A DNA stretch of 64,000 bases from Haladaptatus caseinilyticus (lineage in GTDB: Archaea > Halobacteriota > Halobacteria > Halobacteriales > Haladaptataceae): the NCBI RefSeq assembly GCF_026248685.1, contig NZ_CP111036.1, forward strand, positions 1,798,001-1,862,000, given 5' to 3'. The notes below the pieces were generated by a model. It did not search any database, was not told the DNA's origin, and worked only from the letters and a program-made list of their open reading frames with translations. Below are positions 4,941 to 22,106 of this stretch, one piece after another; position 1 is the stretch's first letter, and every line of letters begins with the position of its first letter. Position numbers and translations under genes: made by a program.

Positions 4941-5392
4941 TTGGTATGGTATCGCATGTTTGTTTCGAAACTATATCGGATCCATCTCGATACAACCCAT
5001 TTTAATATACGTCCGACTAAACGATAAATTTTTAGTCAAAGTAAGTTGTAGATGGCGGTGGGATGCACGAGAAACGAATGAACGACCGATTCGTACGCAC
5101 GGCTCTCACACTGGTCACCACCGTTCGACCAGTGTGAGAGCATTTCGATGCGGACTGCGACACCCTCCCCCACTCGCGTCGCCGTCGGTCGCTTCGGCGT
5201 GCGTCCCTACCCTATCGCTGGACGAGATAACTCCGAACCTTCGGATTTTCCCCGCTGACAATCGGTGTGTCGTTCGTTTCTACGAGTACGGTCGATACAC
5301 ATCGCCTCCACTCGTCACGTACGTCTGTGGACGGTTTTCCGAACTCTCGAAGTGGATGATTTTTTAACGAATGGCGAGAGGAGTATTGAACA
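4941..5392. other. Intergenic region with a perfect hairpin
   Basis: No protein-coding gene is supported between the decayed regulator and the MinD-like gene. Open frames here have no domain character. The region holds a perfect 15-bp inverted repeat (separate entry) followed by GC-rich sequence with no recognisable feature. Confidence 0.5.
5102..5141. repeat. Perfect 15-bp inverted repeat with 10-nt loop
   Basis: The left arm is GCTCTCACACTGGTC (5102-5116) and the right arm GACCAGTGTGAGAGC (5127-5141). They are exact reverse complements around the loop ACCACCGTTC. No T-run follows, so it is not a simple terminator. It could be a structured RNA element, a mobile-element remnant or a protein-binding site. 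Confidence 0.7.
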
Positions 5393-6166
5393 ATGGTCGA
5401 GGCGTTTGCGGTCGCGAGCGGCAAAGGCGGGACTGGAAAGACCACGAGTACGCTTTCGCTCGGAATGGCGCTGGCAGAGGAGTACGATGTAACAGTGGTC
5501 GATGCTGATACGGGAATGGCGAATCTCCTGTTCCACGCGGGTCTTACCGATGTAGAAACGACACTCCACGATCTCCTCATCGAAGGGAGCGACGCGGCGG
5601 TCGAAGATGCGGTTTACGAGCAGTTCGGGATGCGTGTCGTGCCGTGTGGCACGAGTCTCTCCGCATTCGAGCGTGCCGACCCGGATCGACTGCAAGATGT
5701 GGTTGCTGAACTCGCGTCGAAAACGGACGTGCTGTTACTCGATTCGCCCGCAGCCCTCGGGAGCAAGAGTGCAATTCTTCCGATCGTCCTCGCCGACCGT
5801 ATCGTCGTCGTTCTCCAACCCACGATTCCGTCGCTCAGCGACGGTCTGAAGGTCCAAGAGTATGCTCGTTCTTACGGAACCGGGACCGCAGGTGTGCTGT
5901 TCAACAAGGTCCACGCCGACGAGAACGTGGCCGCGATTGCAGAGAAAAGCGAGCGCTACTTCGACGGGCCAACGCTCGCCAAGGTTCCGGACGACGACGC
6001 GGCACGTGCGGCACGACAGGCGGGAAAACCGCTCCTCGCACATGCGCCCGAAAGCCCAGCGGCACGAGCATATCGAGATGCCGCTGCCAGCCTCGACGTT
6101 CGGTCGGGTGAATCGACCGCCGTCGCGGAGCGCTTTCGGAGCGCGGTCATCCCCGATTCGCCATGA
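5393..6166 (+). CDS. MinD/ParA-type ATPase
   Basis: The 257-residue protein is a deviant Walker A P-loop ATPase of the MinD/ParA class. The N-terminus carries SGKGGTGKTT (residues 9-18), with the VVDADTGMANL switch near 40 and LLLDSPAALG as Walker B. Such proteins cycle between monomer and membrane- or DNA-bound dimer to position cargo; haloarchaea carry several MinD paralogues. The length is typical. The C-terminal 30 residues (after KPLLAHAPESPAARAY) hold a possible short amphipathic tail. The stop overlaps the next gene by an ATGA junction, so the two products are translationally coupled and the downstream protein is a candidate partner. Whether the cargo is motility, chemosensory or other cannot be told. 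Confidence 0.85.
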   Translation: MVEAFAVASGKGGTGKTTSTLSLGMALAEEYDVTVVDADTGMANLLFHAGLTDVETTLHDLLIEGSDAAVEDAVYEQFGMRVVPCGTSLSAFERADPDRLQDVVAELASKTDVLLLDSPAALGSKSAILPIVLADRIVVVLQPTIPSLSDGLKVQEYARSYGTGTAGVLFNKVHADENVAAIAEKSERYFDGPTLAKVPDDDAARAARQAGKPLLAHAPESPAARAYRDAAASLDVRSGESTAVAERFRSAVIPDSP

Positions 6167-6720
6167 TGCAGTTGGGTGGCGAACTCGTCCGGTCCCGAGT
6201 CGTTAGTGACCCTGCAACGGCGCTATCGACCGTCCTAGAGCGACGCTTGACAGGATACGCCGTCTTCGAACCACAGGATACCCTCCTCCTGGATGCTGAT
6301 GGTCATGGAATCATTACGTTCGAAGCGGGCGTTCCAGTCTTTGCGTACCATACCGGAACTGGTCGCGGTGGCCCCCCGGCGTTGGCTGACCTCGCCGTCC
6401 CCGGACCGTACAGTATCGATCTTTTTCGGCTTCGTTCGGACGAACTCGACCACGTCGGTGCGAACGGTAATCGTCGAGTTCCCCCCGGAATGCCCGCCGA
6501 GCGACTGGCGGGCGACCCGGAACTGGCATCGCGGACACGAAAATGTGCGCCCATCGACCGACAGCAAGCGTTACCCGACGACGAGGGAGATAGTCCAGTC
6601 AGTGCGGTGGAGGCGTTTCTCGAAGACGAAGAGAAAATCGATGCGATTCGAAAACAGGCGCGCGAAGAAGCCAAACGCCGCGCCGAGGAGTGGGGATTGG
6701 ACAGTCAGTTAGGCACATAA
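6163..6720 (+). CDS. Conserved haloarchaeal protein coupled to the MinD-like ATPase
   Basis: The 185-residue protein has no family I can name. Residues 1-100 look like a compact alpha/beta domain (AVFEPQDTLLLDADGHGIIT, then FEAGVPVFAYHTGTGRGG). A polar linker follows, and then a charged C-terminal helix (DDEGDSPVSAVEAFLEDEEK onward, with many Glu, Lys and Arg) that could form a coiled coil or bind a partner. Its ATG overlaps the stop codon of the MinD/ParA gene. The coupling suggests the two act together, for example this protein as adaptor or regulator of the ATPase. A histidine-kinase-like locus follows after 64 nt. Confidence 0.65.
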   Translation: MMQLGGELVRSRVVSDPATALSTVLERRLTGYAVFEPQDTLLLDADGHGIITFEAGVPVFAYHTGTGRGGPPALADLAVPGPYSIDLFRLRSDELDHVGANGNRRVPPGMPAERLAGDPELASRTRKCAPIDRQQALPDDEGDSPVSAVEAFLEDEEKIDAIRKQAREEAKRRAEEWGLDSQLGT

Positions 6721-6784
6721 GCAAGCGATCGTGTTCGTTCGAAGGGAGAAGGTATAGGTACCTCAATCGAGTGACTGAAAACGG

Positions 6785-7788
6785 ATGCAGATTCCCGGGA
6801 ATCTCCTCGGCCCGGCGCTCGACTCGCTCACACTCAACGTTGCCATTCTGGATTCGGATGCGACGATACTCGCCTCAAATCGTGCGTGGCAGGAGTTCGG
6901 TCGTGACAACGATATTCGGCCGCCTGCGGACACGGTCGGTGACAACTATATCGACATCTGTGACCGATCGGACGATGAATATGCACGAACCGCTGTTGCT
7001 GGCCTTCGTGAAATCATCGACGAGGAACGCGAGACGTTCTCGTTCGAATACCCGTGTCACTCTCCGGGGAGAAAACGATGGTTTCTGATGCACGCGAGTC
7101 GGACTATCTCGTCGTCGTACACGAGAACTTCACCCAGCGAAAGGTCGCGGAACTGGAAGCCGAGCGCCGAACCGAGGAACTGCAGGAGTTCGCAAGACTT
7201 CTCTCACACGATCTTCGTAACCCGCTCGCAGTAGCGCAAGGGTCGGCGAAGATACTGGCGATGGATATCGAGGACGATTATCTCGATGACGTTCTCTCAT
7301 CGCTCCTGCGAATGGAAGCCATCATCGATGACGCCCTTTCCCTCATGCGGTACGGTACTGAGGGGCGCGATAAGGAACCGATCCGACTCAACAAATTGAC
7401 CGAACATGCGTGGTCGAACGTCGAAACGGGATCGGTGTCTTTCGCGCGCACAAACGATCGTATGCTCGACGGCTACCCGGATTTGCTGGAACACGTCTTC
7501 GAAAACATGTTTCGAAACACCATCGAACACGGCGAGGCGACAACTATCACAATCGGGACGACCGAACACGGATTTTACGTCGAAGACGATGGGACAGGCA
7601 TTCCGGACGGAATGCGCAGTAAGGTGTTCGAGATGGGGTATACGACGCAGAAAAACGGGACCGGATTCGGGTTGGCCATCGTCGAGAATCTGGTGAAATC
7701 TCACGGGTGGTCGATTACGGTCGGAGAGGGGGATACGAGTGGCGCGAGGTTCGAAGTATTCACAAATCCCGTGGTCCCGAACAGTTGA
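6785..7788 (+). pseudogene. PAS histidine kinase split by a frameshift
   Basis: Two overlapping frames together make one sensor kinase. The first (from 6785) is a PAS domain: SLTLNVAILDSDATILASN, then KRWFLMHASR. The second continues at about 7095 with ESDYLVVVHENFTQRKVAEL, the usual PAS-to-kinase linker. After it come the H-box (LLSHDLRNPLAV), N-box (ENMFRNTIEHG), G1 (VEDDGTGIP) and G2 (GTGFGLAIV), ending at 7788. The break falls at about 7090-7105 and fits loss of one base (or gain of two). Apart from this, every kinase motif is intact, so the event is recent or a sequencing error. If real, the PAS input is disconnected. The second frame has its own ATG at 7054 and could give a PAS-less kinase. 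Confidence 0.75.
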
Positions 7789-8177: not shown

Positions 8178-9332
8178 ATGACCACTACACGACGTACGTT
8201 CTTGACTGCTGTCGGTTGCACAGGACTCCTCGGCCTCGGTGCGGCACAGAGCGGTGGCGATAGCGGCGCTGACCTCTCCCGCGATTCGTTCACGCTCATG
8301 GGCGGAACAGAAGATGCGACGAAGGTCTACGTAACTACGGCCAGCGAATCCGGACCGACCGCGCTTGTCGTCGGCGGAATGCACGGCAACGAAGAGGGAG
8401 GGTACCTCGCCGCCGAACGAGTCGCACAATGGGATATCGAACGTGGAACGCTAGTCGTGATTCCGAAAACGAACGCCGAAGCCGTCGCGGAAGACGCGCG
8501 CACTGCGAACGGCGAGGACGACCTGAACCGCCAGTTCCCGACCGGTCAGGAACCGACGACTGAACTCGCCCGTGCCATCTGGGGCGTCGTCGAGGAGTAC
8601 GATCCCGATGTCGTCATCGACCTTCACGAATCGGTCGGTATCTACGATGGAGACCTCGTCGGCGGGGTCGGACAGGTGATCTTCACTTCGTGGGACGAAG
8701 CGGCGTCAAGCGACGCGAAAAAGGCTGCCGACTATCTCAACGAAAACTACGTCTCGCGCGACGAGTACGAGTTCTCGATCGGAGCGTTCTCCTCGCCGTC
8801 GAACGAACCGAGCGGACTGTTCGCCCACAAGGCCGCACGTGATGCCGACGCCCTCGCCTTCCTGGCCGAAGTGACATCCAAGGACACGGGAATCGACAAG
8901 CGAGTGCAGTGGCACACCAAACTCGTTCAACAACTCGTCGAGGAGGAAATCCTCACCACGTCCGGGGACGGCGAAGACGAAAACAATGAGGAGGACGGAA
9001 ACGAGGATGACGACGGAACTGACGGCGAGGACGGCGAAACCGGTGACGAGCAGAACGAAGCACCTGTCGCGCATATTCAAACGGCGCCAAACGTTGGTGG
9101 CGGGTCAGTCGAACGGGGTGAGACTGTGACACTGGACGCCTCCGCATCGGAAGACGGTGATGGCGAAATCGTAGAATACATGTGGGACCTCGACGGCGAC
9201 GGTTCGTTCGAAACTGACGGCGAGTCTACCGAAATGACGCCGTCCGAGTGTGGAAGTTACCGAGTCACCTTGCAGGTAACCGACGACAAAGGTGCGATGG
9301 CGACCGACGAAGTCGTCATCTCCGTCGTCTGA
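8178..9332 (+). CDS. Exported succinylglutamate desuccinylase/aspartoacylase-family protein with PKD domain
   Basis: The 384-residue protein begins with a Tat-type signal (RRTFLTAVGCTGLLGLGAAQ). Residues about 40-265 form an M14-like zinc hydrolase of the succinylglutamate desuccinylase/aspartoacylase family. GGMHGNEEGGY supplies His and Glu ligands, DDLNRQFP is the usual Asn-Arg substrate motif, and VIDLHES gives the last His. A highly acidic linker (about 265-300) leads to a PKD domain (VTLDASASEDGDGEIVEYMW, then DLDGDG). Family members hydrolyse N-acylated amino acids or amidated peptides. Export plus PKD points to a surface enzyme acting on peptides or cell-envelope polymers. It stands alone between intergenic regions. 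Confidence 0.8.
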   Translation: MTTTRRTFLTAVGCTGLLGLGAAQSGGDSGADLSRDSFTLMGGTEDATKVYVTTASESGPTALVVGGMHGNEEGGYLAAERVAQWDIERGTLVVIPKTNAEAVAEDARTANGEDDLNRQFPTGQEPTTELARAIWGVVEEYDPDVVIDLHESVGIYDGDLVGGVGQVIFTSWDEAASSDAKKAADYLNENYVSRDEYEFSIGAFSSPSNEPSGLFAHKAARDADALAFLAEVTSKDTGIDKRVQWHTKLVQQLVEEEILTTSGDGEDENNEEDGNEDDDGTDGEDGETGDEQNEAPVAHIQTAPNVGGGSVERGETVTLDASASEDGDGEIVEYMWDLDGDGSFETDGESTEMTPSECGSYRVTLQVTDDKGAMATDEVVISVV

Positions 9333-10126: not shown

Positions 10127-10879
10127 TCACTCCTGGTTCATGTCCTCTTTCAGCGCGGACAGGATTTTTCCGGTCGTCTCCTCGACGACTTCCGCCAGAA
10201 ACTCAGCATCGGATTCGGTCGGATCGCCACGTCCGCCCTGTTCCGTGATGTCATCGTAGTACGTGTACTGTCGGGCTTTGAACCTCGCTTTTCGGGTCTG
10301 TGGCTCCTTTTTGTCGGCTTTCACGAGGTCGGGGTAGAATAGCTCGATGACGCTCGTCTCGTGGTCGCCCGCGTGACCCCACTCCTCACCGAATCGCTCT
10401 TTCAGTCTTTCGCGGGCGAAATCCGTCCAGTGAACGAAGAACGTTTTCACGCCGTAGTCGCGCTGGATACGGTCGCCAGCGAGCTTCATCGGCGGGCGGT
10501 TGCCGCCGTGGCAGTTGAGCAGGACGAGTCGTTTCGCGCCGTGTTCCGCCATCGACTGTGCGATTTCCATGATGACGCGCTGATACGTCTCTCCCGACAG
10601 CGTAATCGTCCCGGCGTAGTTCATGTGGTGTTCGGAGTAGCCGTAGGGTAGTGTCGGCAGTCGTACCATGGATAGGTCGTGTTCCGGTGCGGATTCGACC
10701 AGTTCACGCGAGAGGGCTTCGGCCCGGAGCGTGTCGACGGTGACCGGCAGATGGATCGAATGTTGTTCGACGCTTCCAGTCGGTAGAACGACAAAGTCGG
10801 CGTCCGGGATCGCATCTTCGGCATCCTCCCACGTCATCCCACCGAGGTCGTACTCCTCGTAATCGAGACGGACGGTCAT
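10127..10879 (-). CDS. Creatininase-family amidohydrolase
   Basis: The 250-residue protein has the creatininase-family signature: LPTGSVEQHSIHLPVTVDT near residues 33-50 (Glu, His and Asp metal ligands), NCHGGNRPPM, a later GHAGDHETS and Glu near 180. Relatives include creatinine amidohydrolase, the riboflavin/F420 enzyme ArfB and the mycofactocin peptidase MftE, so the family name does not fix the substrate. Its ATG overlaps the stop of the M28 aminopeptidase gene by 4 nt, so the two form one transcription unit. Given the peptidase and peptide-transporter context, a role in trimming small peptides or amides is plausible but not shown. Confidence 0.8.
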   Translation of the reverse strand: MTVRLDYEEYDLGGMTWEDAEDAIPDADFVVLPTGSVEQHSIHLPVTVDTLRAEALSRELVESAPEHDLSMVRLPTLPYGYSEHHMNYAGTITLSGETYQRVIMEIAQSMAEHGAKRLVLLNCHGGNRPPMKLAGDRIQRDYGVKTFFVHWTDFARERLKERFGEEWGHAGDHETSVIELFYPDLVKADKKEPQTRKARFKARQYTYYDDITEQGGRGDPTESDAEFLAEVVEETTGKILSALKEDMNQE

Positions 10880-12267
10880 CGGTCACCCTTCGCCATCGCT
10901 CCCGCGGTTGTTTCGGCTTCGTCACCCTCGAACGGCCAGTTTCCGGCGTTTCGCATCCCTTCCTCGTACCCCTGTTCGATGGTCGCATCACGAACTTCCG
11001 CGACCGGTTTCGAGGAGATTTCGCGGGACCCGTCCGCGAGTTTGACGACTCCTGCAGTGAAGACGACGGCGAGGTCGCGAAGGTCACGGCGGTCGAGCTT
11101 GTCGAGGGTGTCACCGTGGGTGTGTCCCCATCCCCGTCCGCTGTCGTCGGCGATGGACCGTGCTTGTGCACCCGCAACGCCGTTCTGAACGAACGGCCAG
11201 TGGTCGCTATGTGGGCGGATTCCCGCGTTTATTTCGACCGGAACGCCCAGTTCGTCGCGCACTTCCGCGAACGCGTCCCCGATGGGCTCGAAGCCATGCG
11301 TGTACACGTCGGCGGTCCGGGAGTAGCCCGCACCGTCCATGTTGAAGATGCATTTCACCGAATCGAGGTCGTGGGTTTCGGCCCAGTGATACGCCCCGTA
11401 GAGGCCGACTTCCTCCGCGCCGAAGACGAGACAGCGAACCTTCGTGTCGAGTTCGTCCTCCATTTCGACGAGCAGTCGTCCGATTTCGGCGACGAGCACG
11501 GTGCCAACGCCGTTGTCGTTCGCACCCTCGCCCACGTCGTGCGCATCGACGTGGGCGGTCACGAGGACCTCTTCGTCCGTTTCCGGACCGACGACCGCCT
11601 CGATGTTTCGGGAGTTCGTCGGTTCGTTTCGACAGTCGACGGTCAGTCGGGCGGTCGGTTCGCCATCCTCGCAGTAACGAACCAATCGATGGCCGACCTC
11701 TTTCGAGACGCCGACCGCAGGGATATCCCCCGAGCCGTCTTCGTTGCCGATACTTCCCGTTGGTGGAAGGTTGCCGTCGAGGTGGTTTCGAAAGAGGAAC
11801 CCGGCCGCACCGCCGCGCACTGCCGCGCCGTATTTCTCCCCACGGTGAATCCACCGTCCGTACTCGTCCGGTGTGAGACTGGACGCCATCACGATTTTTC
11901 CCTCCACATCGGCGTTCTCGAAATCCTCCGGCAGTCCATCACCGACATCGATCAGTTCGGCGCTCACGTCGCCGCTCGGCGTTCCCGGGAGAGCGACCGT
12001 CTCGTGCTGTGCATCGAACTCGTGGGTTCGCTCGCGTTCGACGGTTAGCGAACTGGACCCCCGCCACCAACCGGGAATCTCGAATTCGGTTATCGAGGCG
12101 TCTCGCAGGCCATGTGACTCGAACGCGTCTTTCACTAACGCCGCGCCTTCGATTTCGCCTTGTTGTCCGGCCATCCGATTGTCCAAATCGACGAGATCAC
12201 AGAGGAGATTCCAATGATGCGAACTGGTGTACGCATCGCCAACTATTGTCGTGGGTACTGTTTTCAT
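10876..12267 (-). CDS. M28-family zinc aminopeptidase
   Basis: The 463-residue cytoplasmic protein is a di-zinc M28 peptidase. An N-terminal cap holds a PA-type insert (about 110-215, with VEGKIVMASS and GAAGFLFRNHLDG). The catalytic part has VTAHVDAHDVGEGANDNGVG (His and Asp ligands), FGAEEVGLYGA (catalytic Glu plus ligand), FNMDGAGY and a late HSDHWPF. I start it at MKTVPTTIVG (12267); the frame is open 26 codons further, but those residues look non-coding. No signal peptide is present. It is first in a two-gene unit with the creatininase-family gene and divergent from the PmbA-like gene 107 nt away. The likely role is release of N-terminal residues from imported peptides. Confidence 0.82.
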   Translation of the reverse strand: MKTVPTTIVGDAYTSSHHWNLLCDLVDLDNRMAGQQGEIEGAALVKDAFESHGLRDASITEFEIPGWWRGSSSLTVERERTHEFDAQHETVALPGTPSGDVSAELIDVGDGLPEDFENADVEGKIVMASSLTPDEYGRWIHRGEKYGAAVRGGAAGFLFRNHLDGNLPPTGSIGNEDGSGDIPAVGVSKEVGHRLVRYCEDGEPTARLTVDCRNEPTNSRNIEAVVGPETDEEVLVTAHVDAHDVGEGANDNGVGTVLVAEIGRLLVEMEDELDTKVRCLVFGAEEVGLYGAYHWAETHDLDSVKCIFNMDGAGYSRTADVYTHGFEPIGDAFAEVRDELGVPVEINAGIRPHSDHWPFVQNGVAGAQARSIADDSGRGWGHTHGDTLDKLDRRDLRDLAVVFTAGVVKLADGSREISSKPVAEVRDATIEQGYEEGMRNAGNWPFEGDEAETTAGAMAKGDR

Positions 12268-12342
12268 TGTCCGTGGTAGAAAACACAGATGGGAGCGGGT
12301 GTAATGTAGGTTTGGATGGGAGAAATCCGCGCATCTGCGGAA

Positions 12343-12354
12343 CAAATTTTACCA
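12343..12354 (+). promoter_or_regulatory. TATA-like element for the PmbA-like gene
   Basis: An AAATTTTAC element is centred about 26 nt upstream of the ATG at 12375. This fits a leaderless transcript and excludes the long upstream extension of the same frame. Confidence 0.45.
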
Positions 12355-12374
12355 CACCCGGACCAACGGACGGC

Positions 12375-13853
12375 ATGGAAGGATTTACGCAGAGCATCGA
12401 CACCGCGGAGTGGGTGCTATCACGACTCGAATCCGAGGAGTCGGTCGCCTACGCCGAGGTCGGATCTATCGACAGGGAAAGCACCGACGGGTCGGTGATT
12501 CCGGCGGAGGTACGGTCCGCGACCGACCTCTCACAGGCCGGTGTGTGGTGGCGACTGTTCGCGGACGGGAGTGCCGACTACCGATACGCTACCTCGTTCG
12601 AAACCGACCACCTCGAGGATCTCATCGAACGGTCGATACGGTCGGCGACCGTTCTCGACCAGCGAACCTCGGCACGATACGACCGTGGGACGGTTCACCG
12701 AGCGGTGCATTCCGGATGGACGGTAGGTGGGTCGCTCGGCGATTTCGATGCGGCGGAAAAGCTGGAACGGGTTCGATCAGCACTCGCGGATACGACCGAA
12801 GGCCTGTCGCTCGACCGAGCGAACGTCTCCTATCGCGACGACCGAATCGAGAGTACCGTATTGACCACGACTGGGACGACGGTTCGAACGACCCTCGAAC
12901 GTGCGTCGGTGGACGTGGTTTTCGACCCGTTCGATGCGCCGAAGGTCCAGCGCCACTTCGGAAGCACTGCCGGGTCGTCGTTTCTGGAGTCGCTTCCGGG
13001 ACGTTTCGAGGAGCTTGCGACCGACGTCAGACGGTATGTAAACTGGCCGACGACCGACGAGACTCCCGATTTCGGGGAAACGAGCGAAGTCGTTTTCGGT
13101 CCGCGGGCGTCGGCGGAGCTGTTTCACCATCTCATGCACTATCTCGAAATCGATTCCGTCTACTTAGGGTCGAGTCCGTTCTCGGTGGGTGACCGACTCG
13201 GTCCACCCGGTCTCACCATCGAGGACGGTGTTCGTTCCGGGTCGTGGGCGAGCAGGGCGTTCGACGCGGAGGGACGGCCGACCACGCCGGTGACGCTCGT
13301 TTCCGATGGGATCGTTCGGAATCATCTTCACGATATGGTTTCCGCCATCGAGGAGGGGACGACACCGGCGGGTTCGGTCGTCCCGAGTCTCGGTCACGAG
13401 CGACCGCCGAGGATCCACGCGCGACATCTCGATGTGGCCGCCGACGAAACGGCACCGTCGCGGAGCGACGGTGCCGACCTGTACGTGGAGTCGGTCGAAC
13501 CACCGCGAATCGAAAACGAGGCGACCAGAACGAAACGGGAGAGTTCCATGCCGCCGAGTGTTCTGTACGCGAAAGACATCGCCGAGACGACGCCTAGCGA
13601 GTTCGAAAACGAAGCGGACGAGCAGGTGTTCGTGTTTCCGATACGTCTCGGAAACACGATACACGACGGGGAGCGGGCGGGTATGATCACCGAGGGTTCC
13701 GTCGTCGTGTCGCTCTCGGACGTTCGTTCCATTTCCGGCGTCGGCATCGAGCGCGAGACGGTGACAGGAACGTGTTCCAAACATCGGTCGATGCTCCCCT
13801 ACGCGGTCACCGCTCCGGCAGTTCGACTCGCTGCGCGCGTTCGAACAGAGTGA
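12375..13853 (+). CDS. PmbA/TldE-like protein (TldD/PmbA family)
   Basis: The 492-residue protein begins MEGFTQSID. It follows the TldD/PmbA fold: an N-terminal domain with DLIERSIRSAT, a middle strand region, and a C-terminal barrel with GDRLGPPGLTIEDGV and PVTLVSDGIVRNHLHD. TldD subunits carry a zinc-binding HExxxH. At the matching place this protein has AELFHHLMHYLE, so it looks like the non-metal PmbA/TldE partner. TldD-TldE is a heterodimeric protease that processes unfolded peptides and some ribosomal peptide precursors. No TldD partner is encoded in this window. It is divergent from the M28/creatininase unit, and the Dpp transporter follows downstream. Family confident, subunit type fairly so. 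Confidence 0.78.
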   Translation: MEGFTQSIDTAEWVLSRLESEESVAYAEVGSIDRESTDGSVIPAEVRSATDLSQAGVWWRLFADGSADYRYATSFETDHLEDLIERSIRSATVLDQRTSARYDRGTVHRAVHSGWTVGGSLGDFDAAEKLERVRSALADTTEGLSLDRANVSYRDDRIESTVLTTTGTTVRTTLERASVDVVFDPFDAPKVQRHFGSTAGSSFLESLPGRFEELATDVRRYVNWPTTDETPDFGETSEVVFGPRASAELFHHLMHYLEIDSVYLGSSPFSVGDRLGPPGLTIEDGVRSGSWASRAFDAEGRPTTPVTLVSDGIVRNHLHDMVSAIEEGTTPAGSVVPSLGHERPPRIHARHLDVAADETAPSRSDGADLYVESVEPPRIENEATRTKRESSMPPSVLYAKDIAETTPSEFENEADEQVFVFPIRLGNTIHDGERAGMITEGSVVVSLSDVRSISGVGIERETVTGTCSKHRSMLPYAVTAPAVRLAARVRTE

Positions 13854-14002: not shown

Positions 14003-15661
14003 ATGGCAAACGATAACAAGGATGTTGGACGACGTGACTTTCTAAAATATTCGACCGCCGCTGGACTTGGGGGGATGACCGCGCTTGCGGGTTGTAGCGG
14101 TTCCGACGGCAACGGTGACGGTTCGGGCAGTTCCGGAAATACACTACCACAGTACACGTACCTGAACAACCCGGCCAACTACAACCCTGCTCGCCACGAC
14201 GCGATCAACCTCATCGGCGAACAGCTCAATCAACTCGGTTTCAATACGAAGGTGCAGGTGTTCGAGTGGGGGACGCTGTACACCAAGATCACCGAGGAGT
14301 TCAACTACTCGTTCGCGACGTGGTCACGCGGTCTCGGTATCGACCCCGGTCGGCGAATGCCCGAACAGTTCCACTCGTCGAACACGGGGAAAGGTCAGGG
14401 TAATTTCACCGGCTACTCGAACAAGGACCTCGACCCGACCCTGATGAAGCAACTGCAGGAAAAGGACGAGCAAAAACGCATCGACATGCTCCACGATATT
14501 CAAAAAACCATCAACGAGGACGTGCCGATGCATCCGATCGTCCAGATGCCGAACATCGTGGCGTACAACAAAAATCAGGTCAGCGGCTGGACGAACCACA
14601 TCGCGGGCTATTTCCACTTCGAGCCGATGACCAACGTCGAAGTGAACAACAGCAAGAAGGAACTTCGTGGGTCGTGGGCGGAGACGCTCGGGACGATGAA
14701 CGTTCTCGGCTACAACAACGAGACGAAACTCATCCACCAGTTCGAGATGATGTACGACAAGCTCGTGCGCATCAACTCCAAGCTGGAACCCGATCCGAAA
14801 CTCAGCCTGGCGACGGACTGGGAGCGCCCCGACGACACGACGGTGAAGTACAAGATTCGGGAGGGTCACAAGTGGCACGACGGCGAGGACGTGACCCCCG
14901 AGGACGTGAAGTTCACGCTCGACTACATCAAGAAGAACAAAATTCCGCTCTACTCGACGCAGTGGGAACTGTACAAATCGGTCTCCGTGGACGGACAGTG
15001 GGTGACGGTGACGTTCAAGGACCCGATCGGACCGGTCCACAAGCTATTCTCGAACCAGATTCCGATCGTTCCCAAGCACAAATGGGAAAGTCGTTCGAAT
15101 CCGGCGAAAGCGTCGGTCAAAGAACCCGTCGGAAGTGGACCGCTTCAGTTCGACTACTGGGACAAGGGCAGCGAACTGAGCCTCAAAAAGTACGACAGCC
15201 ACTGGCGCCCCGTCAAGTTCAACCGCAGAATCTGGCGTATCATCCCGGAGAGTTCGACTGTCTGGTCGCTGCTGAAAAAGGGCGACCTGAACTACCTGCC
15301 ATACACCCGTATCGGCAAACAGCTCAACGACAATCAGAACAACAACAGTATCGGGGTCGAATCCGCACCCGGCGACGGCTGGTGGCATTTCAGCCAGAAT
15401 ACCCGGCAGAAAGGTCTCAAGGACCCAGCCGTCCGGCAGGCTGCCGTCCACGCGATTCCGAAGAAAGCCATCAACAAGCAGATCCTGTACGGATTCGCGA
15501 CGCAAGGCTGGAACCTCGTCGGCGAGTCGTTCGGCAAGTTCAGCAACCCGGACGTCAAGAAATACCAGAAAAACGACGGCGTAGCAGCGGGACAGAAAGT
15601 GCTCGAAGACGCCGGGTACAGTATCAAAAACGGCAAGGTTCAGGCGAAGTCGTCGAAGTAA
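14003..15661 (+). CDS. Peptide ABC transporter solute-binding lipoprotein (SBP family 5), apparently circularly permuted
   Basis: The 552-residue protein has a Tat signal (GRRDFLKYSTAAG) and an ALAGC lipobox, so it is anchored outside the membrane to deliver peptides to the permeases. The domain order is unusual. Residues about 48-225 match what is normally the C-terminal part of DppA/OppA: LIGEQLNQLGF, VFEWGTLYTKI, NFTGYSNKDLDP, then DVPMHPIVQMPNIVAYN. Residues about 232-545 match the normal N-terminal two thirds: MMYDKLVRIN, IREGHKWHDGEDVTPEDV (about 284-302), DPAVRQAAVHAIPKKAI, ending at KVLEDAGY (about 533-539). That is exactly where canonical proteins continue into the segment found here at the N-terminus. 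It heads an operon with two permeases and two ATPases. Confidence 0.85.
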   Translation: MANDNKDVGRRDFLKYSTAAGLGGMTALAGCSGSDGNGDGSGSSGNTLPQYTYLNNPANYNPARHDAINLIGEQLNQLGFNTKVQVFEWGTLYTKITEEFNYSFATWSRGLGIDPGRRMPEQFHSSNTGKGQGNFTGYSNKDLDPTLMKQLQEKDEQKRIDMLHDIQKTINEDVPMHPIVQMPNIVAYNKNQVSGWTNHIAGYFHFEPMTNVEVNNSKKELRGSWAETLGTMNVLGYNNETKLIHQFEMMYDKLVRINSKLEPDPKLSLATDWERPDDTTVKYKIREGHKWHDGEDVTPEDVKFTLDYIKKNKIPLYSTQWELYKSVSVDGQWVTVTFKDPIGPVHKLFSNQIPIVPKHKWESRSNPAKASVKEPVGSGPLQFDYWDKGSELSLKKYDSHWRPVKFNRRIWRIIPESSTVWSLLKKGDLNYLPYTRIGKQLNDNQNNNSIGVESAPGDGWWHFSQNTRQKGLKDPAVRQAAVHAIPKKAINKQILYGFATQGWNLVGESFGKFSNPDVKKYQKNDGVAAGQKVLEDAGYSIKNGKVQAKSSK

Positions 15662-15690: not shown

Positions 15691-16668
15691 ATGGGAAAAC
15701 TAGATTTCTTTGTCAGACGCACGCTCCAATTGGGGCTGACGCTATGGGCGGTCGCCACTGCGTTGTTTATGCTGTTTCGGCTCATGCCGGGGGATCCGAC
15801 CTCGTACATCATCTCACCCGGGATGACGCCGGAAGTGCGACAGCGACTCGTCGATAGCTACGGGTTGAACGACCCGTTGTGGGTACAGTACGTTCGATAC
15901 ATCGAGAACTTGTTGACGCTCGACCTCGGTCGTTCGTTCAAAACGAACGAGCGTGTCGTGGACGTGCTCGTCACGTATCTTCCAAATACGCTCATCCTGA
16001 TGCTGACCGCATTCGTCGTCGCGTACATCATCGGCATCACGCTGGGCGTGTTCACCGGCTGGTATCGCGGGAGCCAGTTCGAAAAATCCGCCGTCGTGAC
16101 GGCACTCGTCGGCCGGAGCGTCCCGAGTTTCTGGATGGGCATCCTCGTCCTCTGGATATTCGGTGCCAAGTTGGGCGTCATCCCGATGAGCGGCATGACA
16201 AGCCTCGGTTCCGGTCCGAAGGACTTCTGGGGTATGGTCTTCTCGGTGGACTTCCTCCATCACCTCATCGCGCCCGTCATCGTGCTCGCGTTCTATTACA
16301 TGGGCTATCCACTGCTCATCATGCGCAACAGCATGCTCGAAACACTCTCTGAGGACTTCATCGACCTTTGTCGGGCGAAGGGGTTGACGGAACGGTCGAT
16401 AATGTTCAAACACGCCGCCAGAAACGCCCTGCTTCCCGTCCTGACTGCCGCGGCCATCGCGGTCGGCTACGCGGTCGGCGGGAGCGTCCTCATCGAGACG
16501 GTGTTCGGATGGCCGGGTATCGGACGGGAGATGATTCGAGCGGTGCTCAGGCGCGACTTCCCGGTCGCGCAGGGGACGTTCCTCGTCCTCGCACTGTCGG
16601 TCATCGTGATGAACTTCGTGGCCGACCTACTGTACGGCGTTCTCGACCCACGGGTGACCTATGACTGA
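15691..16668 (+). CDS. dppB: Peptide ABC transporter permease, DppB type
   Basis: The 325-residue permease has the DppB/OppB layout: an N-terminal helix (LGLTLWAVATALFMLFRL), the MPGDPTSYI motif, a periplasm-facing domain, then five membrane helices. The cytoplasmic EAA loop that contacts the ATPase reads near DFIDLCRAKGLTERSIMFKH. It lies 29 nt after the solute-binding-protein gene and overlaps the next permease gene by 8 nt, so it is clearly within the operon. It forms the membrane channel with the DppC-type subunit. The length is normal for the family. Confidence 0.92.
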   Translation: MGKLDFFVRRTLQLGLTLWAVATALFMLFRLMPGDPTSYIISPGMTPEVRQRLVDSYGLNDPLWVQYVRYIENLLTLDLGRSFKTNERVVDVLVTYLPNTLILMLTAFVVAYIIGITLGVFTGWYRGSQFEKSAVVTALVGRSVPSFWMGILVLWIFGAKLGVIPMSGMTSLGSGPKDFWGMVFSVDFLHHLIAPVIVLAFYYMGYPLLIMRNSMLETLSEDFIDLCRAKGLTERSIMFKHAARNALLPVLTAAAIAVGYAVGGSVLIETVFGWPGIGREMIRAVLRRDFPVAQGTFLVLALSVIVMNFVADLLYGVLDPRVTYD

Positions 16669-17644
16669 AACGATGAGCCAGGAACACGAACGGTCCATAT
16701 TCGAAGACATCGAGGGGGACGAAGACGAGCAGTTCAGCGCGTGGCAACGGAACCTCCGACTCTGGAAGGAGACGGTCTCGGAGCAGTTCTTCATGCTCGT
16801 CGAGGACCCGATGGTCGTTCTCGCGATGCTGACGCTCGCGTTCTTCGGTATCATCGCGGCAATCGCACCGTGGATAGCGCCGTACGGTCCGAAGGACCGC
16901 CTGATGACGAACGGATTGTTCGCCAAGTGGGTGAAGCCCTCGTTCCTCGGCGGCGACGGCGGCTACATCCTCGGGACGACGGCGCAGGGGTACGACATCT
17001 TCAGCCAACTCCTCTACGGCGCACGCCCGGCCTTGATGGTTGGCCTGGTCGCCGCGTTCATGACGGTCGGTCTCGGCACCCTCGTCGGCCTCACCGCCGG
17101 GTACTACGGCGGCCGCGTGGACGACACACTGATGCGAATCGTAGACTTCGTCTACGGGCTTCCGCTCCTCCCAACGGTCATCGTCCTCGTGACGGTGCTC
17201 GGACCGGGCCTGGAGAACATCATCCTCGCGTTCGTGTTGCTGCAGTGGCGAACCTCGGCGCGTGTTATTCGCGCGCTCGTCCTCTCGCTCCGCGAACGCT
17301 CGTTCGTCAAGGCGGCGAAGGTGTCCGGCGCGAGCAACTGGCGAATCATCTCGCGCCACATCGCGCCGAACGTCCTCCCGATGGCGTTCCTCTACGGCGC
17401 GTTCGCCATCGCGTGGGCGATTCTCACCGAAGCCGGGGTGTCGTTCCTCGGACTCGGCGACCCCAACAGCGTCTCGTGGGGCGTGATGCTCCAGAGTGCA
17501 CGCGTCTACAGCGCGATGACTGAAGGCGCGTGGTGGTGGTTCGTGCCGCCAGGAGTCTGTATCGCGCTCGTGGTCATCAGCGGCTTCCTCATCGGCCGCG
17601 GCTACGAAGAAATCGTCAATCCGGAACTACAGGTCGAACAATGA
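16661..17644 (+). CDS. dppC: Peptide ABC transporter permease, DppC type
   Basis: The 327-residue permease has a long hydrophilic N-terminus (about 1-45, acidic, typical of haloarchaea) and then the DppC/OppC pattern. That pattern is a first membrane helix (VVLAMLTLAFFGIIAAIAPW), an extracellular loop with LGTTAQGYDIFSQLLYGAR (the usual LGTD-x-x-GRD motif in variant form), and five further helices. The EAA loop is SFVKAAKVSGASNWRIISRH. The gene overlaps dppB by 8 nt. The pair makes the translocation pore of the peptide importer. Confidence 0.92.
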   Translation: MTETMSQEHERSIFEDIEGDEDEQFSAWQRNLRLWKETVSEQFFMLVEDPMVVLAMLTLAFFGIIAAIAPWIAPYGPKDRLMTNGLFAKWVKPSFLGGDGGYILGTTAQGYDIFSQLLYGARPALMVGLVAAFMTVGLGTLVGLTAGYYGGRVDDTLMRIVDFVYGLPLLPTVIVLVTVLGPGLENIILAFVLLQWRTSARVIRALVLSLRERSFVKAAKVSGASNWRIISRHIAPNVLPMAFLYGAFAIAWAILTEAGVSFLGLGDPNSVSWGVMLQSARVYSAMTEGAWWWFVPPGVCIALVVISGFLIGRGYEEIVNPELQVEQ

Positions 17645-17701: not shown

Positions 17702-18736
17702 GTGGCCCTGCTCGAAGTCGAGGACCTCGAAGTGTACTACGACAGCGAAGACGGCCCGGTCAAGGCGGTCGATGGCGTCAGCTTCGAAATCGAAGCGGGC
17801 GAGACCATCGGCATCGTCGGCGAATCCGGCTGTGGAAAATCGACGCTCGCCAAGGCCCTCATCGGAATCCTGCCGAAAAACGGCTACATCAACGGCGGGA
17901 GCATCCGGTTCAAGGGCGAAGATCTGACCGACATGCCCGAAAAGCGTCGTCGGGCACTCCGTTGGGACGAGATTTCACTCATCGCACAGTCCGCGATGAA
18001 CGCGCTCGACCCCGTCTACACCATCCGGGAACAGATCCTGGAAGCCATCGACGCACACTACCCGAAGATGGGTCGAACCGAAGCGCAAGAGATCATCGAC
18101 GAGTCGTTCGATCTCGTCGGTCTCGACCGCGAACGGCAGACGGACTATCCCCATCAGTTCTCGGGGGGGATGCGCCAGCGTGCCATGATCGCCATGTCGC
18201 TCGTGCTTCAACCGTCGCTCATCCTCGCGGACGAACCGACGACGGCACTGGACGTCATCATGCAGGACCAGATTCTCAAGCGAATCAACGGGATTCAGCG
18301 CGAGAGCGACACCGCAATGATGGTCATCACGCACGACGTGGCGGTCGTCGCGGAGACTTGTGACCGCGTCGTCGTCATGTACGCGGGCGAAATCGCGGAG
18401 GAAGGCCCCGCCGAGTTCATCTTCGGCGAACCGTACCATCCCTACACGCTGGGACTGAAAAGCGCGTTCCCGGATATCCGACAGTCGAGTCAGGACCTCG
18501 TGAGCATCGGCGGTCACCCGCCGGATTTGAGCAACCCACCCAGCGGATGTCGGTTCGCGGAACGATGTCCACTGGCGACGGAAAAATGTACGGAGGACAA
18601 CCCACCCGCGGTGATCCACGGCGACCTGCGGTCGTACTGCCACCATGCCGACAAGATCGATTCGCAACTGCGTCCAGTCGCGAGTCAAGCGGAGACGTGG
18701 GAGAACGAGGCGTCGATGGGGGTGAGCGATGACTGA
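17702..18736 (+). CDS. dppD: Peptide ABC transporter ATPase, DppD type
   Basis: The 344-residue ATPase starts at a GTG (17702), the first start in frame before the conserved LLEVEDLEVYY. Walker A is GESGCGKST (40-48), the signature FSGGMRQRAMIA and Walker B LILADEPTTALD. A C-terminal oligopeptide-type cysteine cluster (CRFAERCPLATEKC) follows; in relatives this region binds an iron-sulfur cluster or folds as a regulatory tail. It powers uptake together with the DppF-type ATPase. The gene is 57 nt after dppC and its stop overlaps the next ATPase gene by 8 nt. Confidence 0.92.
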   Translation: MALLEVEDLEVYYDSEDGPVKAVDGVSFEIEAGETIGIVGESGCGKSTLAKALIGILPKNGYINGGSIRFKGEDLTDMPEKRRRALRWDEISLIAQSAMNALDPVYTIREQILEAIDAHYPKMGRTEAQEIIDESFDLVGLDRERQTDYPHQFSGGMRQRAMIAMSLVLQPSLILADEPTTALDVIMQDQILKRINGIQRESDTAMMVITHDVAVVAETCDRVVVMYAGEIAEEGPAEFIFGEPYHPYTLGLKSAFPDIRQSSQDLVSIGGHPPDLSNPPSGCRFAERCPLATEKCTEDNPPAVIHGDLRSYCHHADKIDSQLRPVASQAETWENEASMGVSDD

Positions 18737-20087
18737 CCCGACGACGGGGAATGCGGCGAGCGGCACGGACGACGACACGCTCGTCCGCGTCGAAGGGCTG
18801 GAAAAGCATTTCCCGGTCGGCACCGGCCTCGTGAGCAGTCTCATGAGATCCATCCGCGGCGAGGAAGAAGATGCAGTTCACGCCATCGACGGTATCTCTT
18901 TCGACCTCCGTGAGGGTGAGACGTTCGGTATCGCCGGGGAATCCGGCTGTGGCAAGACCACGACCGGGATGTGCCTGACGAAACTGTACGAACCCACCGG
19001 TGGCAGCATCTACTACGACGACGAGGACATCGCGGACAAGAGCGGCTCCGACCTCACGAACTTCCGGCAGAACGCTCAGATGATATTTCAGGACCCGTTC
19101 GAGAGCCTGAACCCGCGGATGACGGTGTACGACACCGTGGTCGAACCGCTCCGCATCCACGACGTGCCGAACCAACGCGCGCGCGTTCGACGCGCGCTGG
19201 AGTTCGCCGAACTCGAACCGGCGGAGGCGTACTTCGACCGCTATCCGCACGAACTGTCGGGTGGCCAGCGCCAACGCCTCGCCATCGCTCGGGCGTTGGT
19301 CATCGACCCGGACTTCATCGTCGCCGACGAACCGGTGTCCATGCTCGACGTGAGTCTCCGCGCCGGTGTACTCTCCCTGCTGGAGCGCATGACCGACGAG
19401 TTCGGTCTCTCGGTCGTCTACATCAGTCACGACCTCTCGCTCCTGCGTCACATGTGCGACCGACTCGCCATCATGTACATGGGAAAAATCGTCGAACAGG
19501 GACCGACGGAGGAGATAATCACGAACCCGAAACACCCCTACACGCGGGCACTCATCGACGCGGTGCCGGTTCCCGACCCGTTGGCGGGCCGGGAACGGGT
19601 CGAACTGGAGGGTGAGGTCGGCGACGCGATCAACGTGCCGTCCGGCTGTCGGTTCCGGAAGCGGTGTCAAAAACTCATCCAACCGTCGGAGTACAACCTC
19701 ACCGACGACGAGTGGACCGCTGTGAGAACCTTCATGCGCGCGGTTCAGTTACACAATATCGAGAGCCGTGACGAGGCCGAAATCAGAAGTGAGTTCTTTG
19801 CCGACGTAACCCTCGATGGCGAAGCGGGTAATATCGTGGACGAGGGTCTCTCGTTGGTTTCCGCCGGGGAATTGGACGACGCTGACGACCTACTCACCGG
19901 TCGATTCGAGGACGAAAGTGTCTGTGCCAATGCACTCCCACCACTCCACGAACGGACGGACATCGATGGCGAACGGGAAGTCGCCTGTCACCGCTACGAA
20001 AGTGCGGAAGGCTTCGATCCGTACGCCGAAATCGAGGAGGCGAAACCCGAGGAACTCACTCCCTCGGCGGAATCGTCCGCCAACTGA
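18729..20087 (+). CDS. dppF: Peptide ABC transporter ATPase, DppF type, with C-terminal insertion
   Basis: The 452-residue ATPase has Walker [10 protein letters not shown] (70-78), signature [12 protein letters not shown] and Walker [13 protein letters not shown]. It is about 100 residues longer than bacterial DppF. The extra sequence splits the C-terminal cysteine tail: [11 protein letters not shown] is followed by roughly 90 acidic residues ([20 protein letters not shown] onward) before [11 protein letters not shown] and VACHRYE. I recall a similar enlargement in other haloarchaeal DppF proteins, so it is probably lineage-specific, not decay. It is the last gene of the operon. Confidence 0.9.
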
Positions 20088-21029: not shown

Positions 21030-22106
21030 TCAGCGTGGTCTCCGAATCTCGTCCCGACTCGGGAACTCCTGATTCAATGCGGACAACAGCACGTCAGCAG
21101 TCTCCTCCGCGTCCACCATGGAGAGCGTTTCGACCGGCGAATGTGAGTATCGACAGGGAACCGCGATGGCCCCGGCGTGGCGGCCGCCGCGAACCTGTTG
21201 GAGCTCGGTCGCGTCGGTCGAACCGGTCAACATCAGGTCGTGTTGAATCGTTACTCCTATTTTTTCCGCGGCATCCTGCAGCCACGTTCTGGTCTGTCGG
21301 TCCACGATGACGCCGCCGAAGAGGTACTCCGACGTCCCGTCGCCGAACTCGACGACGGGACCGCCATCAAGCGTCGCTTTTACACCGTCGGTTCGTCCGG
21401 CAGGGTAGTCGTCCACCGGGAAGATTTCGAGCGCGATGGCGACGTCGGGGTCGAGACTGTATCCCGCGGCACGGGCGCCACGGAGGCCGACTTCCTCCTG
21501 TACCGTGGCGACGTAGTGTACCGTTGCGTCGACATCCTCCTCGCGAGCGATTGCGAGCAGGATTGCCAATGCGATTCGGTCGTCCAGCGCCCGACCAGCG
21601 ATTCGGTCGTTCCCGAGTCGAGTGACGCCACAGTCCCATATCGCATAATCGCCGGGTTCGACGCCGAGTTCGGCCACATCATCGGACGTCGTTGCCCCGA
21701 TGTCGATGCGGAGGTTCTCCGGAAGCGACTCCTTTTCGTCCTCGTTCATATAGTGGCGACAGCGCGGGCCGATGACGCCGGGAACGCCGTCCGGACCGAC
21801 GCGAACCCGTTGGCCTGACAGGTTCCCTTTGTAGTGTCCACCGAGCATCCGAAAGGTGAGAAACCCGTTTTCGTCCACTCGGTCGATGAGGAACCCCAAT
21901 TCGTCGGTGTGAGCCGCGAACATAACCTCAAAATCGCTATCCTCGCTTCCCTCACTCGTCGCCGTGACGTTGCCCATCGCGTCGAACGAGACGTGGTCGA
22001 CGTGTGGTTCCATCAGGTTCGCAAACCGGTCGGCGACGGCGTACTCGTTTCCGGGCGCACCGGGTGCTTCGACCAGCGTTTCGAGGTCTTCGAACGAAAC
22101 GTGCAT
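21030..22106 (-). CDS. M42-family aminopeptidase
   Basis: The 358-residue protein is a tetrahedral-aminopeptidase-type M42 metallopeptidase. MFAAHTDELGFL gives the first zinc His, GRALDDRIALAI the bridging Asp, VQEEVGLRGARAA the catalytic Glu and ligand Glu, and a late CRYSHSPVE the last His. An SH3-like dimerisation insert lies at about 70-165. Relatives form TET dodecamers that degrade short peptides in the cytoplasm. It is the fourth peptidase-class gene of this half of the window and probably serves the same peptide-breakdown role as the M28 enzyme. Confidence 0.88.
   Translation of the reverse strand: MHVSFEDLETLVEAPGAPGNEYAVADRFANLMEPHVDHVSFDAMGNVTATSEGSEDSDFEVMFAAHTDELGFLIDRVDENGFLTFRMLGGHYKGNLSGQRVRVGPDGVPGVIGPRCRHYMNEDEKESLPENLRIDIGATTSDDVAELGVEPGDYAIWDCGVTRLGNDRIAGRALDDRIALAILLAIAREEDVDATVHYVATVQEEVGLRGARAAGYSLDPDVAIALEIFPVDDYPAGRTDGVKATLDGGPVVEFGDGTSEYLFGGVIVDRQTRTWLQDAAEKIGVTIQHDLMLTGSTDATELQQVRGGRHAGAIAVPCRYSHSPVETLSMVDAEETADVLLSALNQEFPSRDEIRRPR

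Follow-up and report, generated by a model that had tools for sequence, protein, structure and literature searches.

The ORF at 14003-15661 (+) of the window, the whole stretch of 64,000 nucleotides analysed here, very probably encodes an SBP family 5 (cluster C) protein that is naturally circularly permuted and serves the adjacent DppBCDF-type ABC importer. Homology searches and trees place the protein in a permuted clade that spans Halobacteria and Alphaproteobacteria and retains the transporter operon. This rotated family is old, widespread and unannotated in salt-loving archaea and some bacteria. Sequence comparisons further indicate that the permutation arose more than once, and that a second archaeal lineage was cut at the same loop.

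Rotated order of homologous blocks

The reading frame runs from an ATG at 14003 to a stop codon at 15659-15661, and its product is 552 aa long. The start region carries a twin-arginine motif and a lipobox (MANDNKDVGRRDFLKYSTAAGLGGMTALAGC); a Tat-type signal peptide (14003-14095, RRDFLK at aa 10-15) leads to the lipobox LAGC with Cys31. The Pfam TAT_signal match was weak and below its cutoff, and NCBIfam TIGR01409 scored 17.6 bits against a cutoff of 16.7. A linker rich in Ser, Gly and Asp follows (aa 32-49, 14096-14149) and is of low complexity in orthologues too. The C block (aa ~50-212, 14150-14638) shares homology with the C-terminal third of canonical family-5 proteins, corresponding to DppA mature residues 354-493. 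In the rotated alignment, the native C-terminus then passes almost directly into the native N-terminus at a junction of about five residues (aa ~213-217, 14639-14653). The N block (aa ~218-543, 14654-15631) is homologous to the N-terminal two thirds of the family (DppA ~1-340). Profile mapping puts the new C-terminal breakpoint at DAGY (aa 536-539, 15608-15619), where the canonical chain goes on into the C block.

PF00496 matched the protein in two stretches with 197 bits (curated cutoff 32.4), the C block lying before the N block, which is not the canonical order. Positions 3-284 of the 368 in this profile (SBP_bac_5) aligned with aa 266-545, and in a whole-genome scan the profile tail (289-365) matched upstream, at 14156-14383 of the window. 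Solved structures gave the same picture with phmmer: residues 72-360 of 5u4o matched aa 247-540 (i-E 4e-22) and residues 373-516 matched aa 62-207 (7e-9), and AppA (1xoc) had the same swapped pattern. When a profile of the permuted family was run on E. coli DppA (1dpe), 32-340 and 354-493 matched, again swapped (i-E 1.5e-42 and 8e-14). The solved-structure matches listed were of the family-5 type, and homology to type I/cluster B sugar-binding proteins was not encountered among them. Both blocks are thus recognisably homologous to SBP family 5. By these alignments the new ends fall just beyond the A..LL.dAGY helix, in the loop that separates DppA mature ~340 from ~354.

A sequence-only reading of this DNA had described landmark motifs in the wrong order, and the swap relative to PF00496, 5u4o and 1dpe bears this out. 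The upstream block proved to be homologous to the family C-terminus, in solved structures and profiles alike, and is not an unrelated domain. The chain end had been read as lying just after KVLEDAGY; the start of the native N-terminal segment, which had been put at aa 240-300, lies at about aa 218 (KELRGSWAETLGTMNVL).

Alignment to a doubled canonical sequence had been set beforehand as a check. A canonical profile was built from ten canonical proteins of the same genome and doubled head to tail. Positions 332-809 of the doubled profile matched aa 57-543 of the window protein as a single continuous alignment with 218 bits, whereas the single profile broke the protein into matches of 52 and 158 bits. 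Canonical control proteins gained nothing from the doubled profile over the single one. An AlphaFold2 model on a shallow alignment of 4 sequences had a mean pLDDT of 36.6 and a pTM of 0.28.

Operon and gene neighbourhood

The gene is followed on the same strand by permeases of the DppB type (15691-16668; BPD_transp_1, BPD_transp_1_N) and the DppC type (16661-17644; BPD_transp_1, OppC_N) and by ATPases of the DppD type (17702-18736) and the DppF type (18729-20087), each with ABC_tran and oligo_HPY domains. The usual family-5 linkage to ABC permeases and oligo_HPY ATPases is therefore present at the window locus, and the order SBP-B-C-D-F is retained in almost all loci examined. The Pfam scan and the conserved loci agree with the earlier view that the rest of the Dpp operon is normal.

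Upstream lie a creatininase-family amidohydrolase gene (10127-10879, -; PF02633), an M28 peptidase gene with a PA domain that points away from the transporter operon (10876-12345, -; PF04389, PF02225), and an ORF with a TldD/PmbA metallopeptidase C-terminal domain (12009-13853, +; PF19289), whose true start is probably past 12345. The TldD-domain ORF is conserved at L001-L003, L074 and L073. Linkage of M28, TldD and creatininase genes is retained in L001 and L003; L002 is without creatininase within its stretch, and Natrialba magadii (L074) retains the M28 and TldD linkage. A creatininase gene also adjoins L071 and L075, and at the bacterial loci L055-L057 genes for M28 peptidases and hydantoinase/oxoprolinase adjoin. 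The wider region of the window is rich in peptidase and amidohydrolase genes (146-1327, 8178-9332, 10127-12345, 12009-13853, 21030-22106), with M24-like, aspartoacylase-like, creatininase, M28, TldD/PmbA and M42-like aminopeptidase types, those outside the Pfam scan being named by eye.

Spread of the permuted family and selection

The window gene and L016, L018 and L019 make up the permuted members, four in number, of the 20 family-5 genes in this genome. Full-length orthologues of 83-89% identity are present in three named genomes, in independent assemblies that include a complete chromosome. A search with the window protein gave matches at E<1e-40 in 71 of 392 Halobacteria genomes, nearly all rows running end to end, with 25-100% identity, and many more Halobacteria had matches spanning the junction at a laxer limit. 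Among the matches listed from other classes of the phylum, aa ~213-549 alone was covered, the targets being canonical proteins, except in G550.

Bacterial homologues were sampled through plasmids only. With the window protein and a Nitratireductor protein as tblastn queries, single-piece, nearly full-length alphaproteobacterial homologues were found in Nitratireductor, Microvirga, Neorhizobium, Ketogulonicigenium, Roseomonas, Maritalea and Salipiger. Profile mapping gave the permuted order for Nitratireductor (L055), Ketogulonicigenium (L056), Roseomonas (L057), Maritalea (L070), Neorhizobium (L080) and also Salipiger (L122), so that the clade holds at least six alphaproteobacterial genera. 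At most permuted loci the end of the N block maps to about position 372 of the profile and the start of the C block to about 372-390; the edges are less exact in a few divergent members. The annotated records of permuted members name them only 'ABC transporter substrate-binding protein'. Rhizobium matches that apparently crossed the junction were canonical on checking, and a viral-contig match (L054) was canonical by profile mapping. L094 and L095, considered as duplication intermediates, were ordinary permuted proteins with a spurious upstream reading frame.

For maximum-likelihood trees, permuted sequences were rotated to the canonical order and canonical proteins were added. The 23 main permuted rows formed one clade with support of 100/95 (98/94 in a second sampling). 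Separate trees of the N block and the C block each recovered the permuted clade with moderate SH-aLRT support (92 and 82), and in both a canonical group of L062, L066, L067 and L077 lay near it. The search for homologues proposed earlier as a guide to the age of the permutation thus uncovered a whole permuted clade in place of a single oddity.

The window gene is under purifying selection: pN/pS was 0.15-0.17 against its orthologues and 0.09 for L001 against L003, with similar values in both blocks. Since the operon is also normal, the earlier judgement that the protein is probably functional stands.

Many members of the clade (among them L055-L057, L071 and L083-L086) have a longer ligand-loop motif, P-E/D-R followed by x-D-P, at the position where canonical proteins have GD..DPD. 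The longer motif near the ligand site is a possible signature of the clade.

Repeated origin of the permutation

L101-L104 are permuted proteins from a different order within the phylum; L058, which appears in the tests below, is the same protein as L101. L102 and L103 are lipoproteins of 520-523 aa that are 83-85% identical in protein, in both blocks, to canonical L106 of the same genus. In the tree they nest among the canonical orthologues of their own genus, and the outgroups L110 and L065 are canonical as well. The permuted form of L102 and L103 is therefore derived. The C-terminal end of L103 (..LKKAGYSE*) falls at the exact point where the canonical protein runs on as ..AGYSEDNKLKLELWW.., and its native ends are fused as ..YYLVYSEEQKDTITIGVTD...

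The rearrangement can be followed at the DNA level between the permuted gene in L111 (G483:C7, 6140-7711) and the canonical gene in L115 (G479:C46, reverse complement, about 5155-6713). The C block at 6224-6706 of L111 corresponds to 6214-6696 of L115, and the N block at 6732-7671 corresponds to 5252-6191, with 79-82% DNA identity. In G550 the permease operon is led by a canonical orthologue; in G483 the permuted gene is divergent from the operon. In G483 the permuted gene is immediately followed downstream by a DDE transposase gene (PF01609; L111 7802-8833, -). The transposase stretch had no match at the G491 locus L112, and the transposase is therefore probably not the cause of the permutation in G483. 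The recent case of L102-L104 demonstrates that a working gene can be rotated.

In the haloarchaeal pair L091 (G028) and L097 (G034) the cut precedes that of the main clade by one helix: the A..LL helix opens their C block, which places the cut before that helix. The pair also stands apart from the main clade in the tree and possibly represents another independent event. Overall we consider it likely that family 5 has a permutation hot spot, the loop after the lobe II A..LL..AGY helix, where the chain was cut and its native ends fused on at least three or four separate occasions (in the haloarchaeal/alphaproteobacterial clade, in L102-L104, in L101 and, as a near miss one helix earlier, in L091/L097).

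A competitor to repeated opening of this loop is one ancient permutation for all permuted family-5 proteins with canonical order restored in some lineages. It would explain the breakpoint loop common to groups P and most Q members, and an AU test did not reject the union of the main clade with L091 (p=0.316). However, one clade of all permuted rows was rejected (p=0.0035), as was the main clade joined with L058 (p=0.0006). All of these AU values are indicative, since some of the grouping was chosen once the first tree had been seen. The nesting of L102-L103 among canonical orthologues with canonical outgroups, the earlier cut in L091/L097 and the need for an exact re-rotation argue against it as well, and we regard it as improbable. 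Domain shuffling, in which the C-terminal part of one SBP gene would have been joined to the front of a truncated copy of another, has in its favour that 20 family-5 genes in the genome could recombine. When tested by separate block trees such a paralogue chimera was disfavoured: the trees of the two halves agree, each uniting the permuted rows in one clade close to a shared canonical group, which indicates one rotated gene, and in the recent case a single canonical gene has 83-86% identity to both blocks. We hold this origin to be very improbable.

An artefact in which adjacent genes were joined by frameshift, misassembly or an over-long ORF has a negligible probability, and nothing in its favour was found. 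The protein is encoded by a single ORF, and the 83-89% identical orthologues in independent assemblies, together with end-to-end matches in many Halobacteria genomes, exclude chance and misassembly. A different kind of explanation is that the rotation was an adaptation of the tether that put the anchor on lobe II in place of lobe I and left the cleft free, as Brautigam et al. proposed for the cause of the permutation in TpMglB-2 (PMC4990184). An N-terminal lipobox is indeed found in nearly all haloarchaeal permuted members and in L102-L104, and L101 carries an anchor motif at its other end. Against this, alphaproteobacterial L055, L056, L070 and L080 and haloarchaeal L028 have a signal peptide without the lipobox cysteine, so that tethering is not the general reason for the permutation, and canonical haloarchaeal family-5 proteins are lipoproteins too. 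We consider the tethering explanation unlikely, though it deserves some weight.

Folding, anchoring and ligand

Published family-5 structures have the native N- and C-termini both in lobe I (domain I) and place DppA residues ~340-354 within lobe II. As the native termini lie together in lobe I, joining them should cost little. The window protein would fold as a normal two-lobed Venus flytrap with its new ends on the surface of lobe II, and the positions of the native and new ends predict that the N-terminal lipid anchor hangs from lobe II instead of lobe I. In L101 (G550:C2) a C-terminal PGF-CTERM archaeosortase motif (aa 557-579) replaces the lipobox, so that the anchor there would hang from the new C-terminus. 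For the single origin in the main clade, a canonical gene may have been tandemly duplicated, or rearranged in an equivalent way, with later loss of the outer segments; no duplication intermediate was visible among the loci examined. The permutation itself, as first read, holds, and the duplication and trimming invoked for it are plausible for the old event.

DppA holds its dipeptide with R355 and D408, which are R383 and D436 when the precursor is numbered (PMC12136057). By the permuted-family profile alignment, the Arg position is A58 in the window protein; a non-acidic residue within WSRGLGIDP takes the place of the Asp. These replacements make a DppA-like dipeptide an unlikely ligand. Some canonical haloarchaeal family-5 members likewise lack the Asp, so its loss is not specific to the permutation. 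Because these charged residues are not conserved, the earlier label 'peptide-binding' holds as an inference from family and neighbours. The protein would capture a solute, probably peptides or related amides, and hand it to the permeases; from the operon and its linkage to peptidase genes we infer uptake of such compounds followed by hydrolysis. At L070 and L122, both alphaproteobacterial permuted operons, flavin-dependent monooxygenase genes (NtaA/DmoA or LLM class) adjoin, which suggests a different substrate for this branch. The window protein most likely behaves like any Venus-flytrap binding protein, except that its tether has shifted to the other lobe; fold, substrate and docking are predicted.

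Discussion

Natural circular permutations are usually isolated, ancient curiosities. Here permutation extends through a whole unannotated clade of importer proteins, and the rearrangement recurs elsewhere. It now becomes testable whether the order of the fold constrains family 5 and whether docking to DppB/DppC depends on which lobe carries the anchor. The DNA-level course of permutation is testable as well, because the genes of G483, G491 and G530 have close canonical orthologues. If the hot-spot reading is true, its recent event amounts to a natural experiment in which topology, anchoring and ABC docking can be compared before and after rotation, with canonical and permuted orthologues coexisting within one genus at a DNA identity of about 80%. 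Profile annotation and end-to-end alignment silently mis-handle rotated members of the large SBP family 5.

The window protein and canonical SBP family 5 (PF00496; E. coli DppA, OppA and NikA, B. subtilis AppA) are homologous over about the whole mature chain, share the same operon type (permease-permease-ATPase-ATPase), and both have an N-terminal export signal. They differ in that the blocks of the window protein are rotated, with new termini at DppA ~340/354 and an anchor predicted on lobe II, and in that the dipeptide-contact residues of DppA are not conserved. Circular permutation by duplication is a general mechanism (PMC3320104), and it predicts the fused native termini and the new termini inside the chain that are seen in the window protein. 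The present case departs from it in having no surviving tandem intermediate, and in the recent archaeal case the gene has, in addition, been inverted with respect to the permease genes.

No report of a permuted family-5 binding protein was found in the open literature, subscription papers being outside its scope. The nearest known precedent is a sugar-binding protein, TpMglB-2 (Tp0684) of Treponema, a circularly permuted glucose-binding lipoprotein for which its authors propose a 'cluster Bc' (PMC4990184). Like the window protein, TpMglB-2 is a natural, lipid-tethered permutant of a bilobed ABC binding protein, with a family in several organisms. It belongs to cluster B and binds sugar, whereas the window protein belongs to SBP family 5. 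The permuted segment of TpMglB-2 is 13% identical to its canonical counterpart, which left gene acquisition open, whereas the blocks of the window protein are clearly homologous to theirs. Finally, TpMglB-2 needs a fourth hinge crossing, whereas the window protein is expected to fold without an extra crossing.
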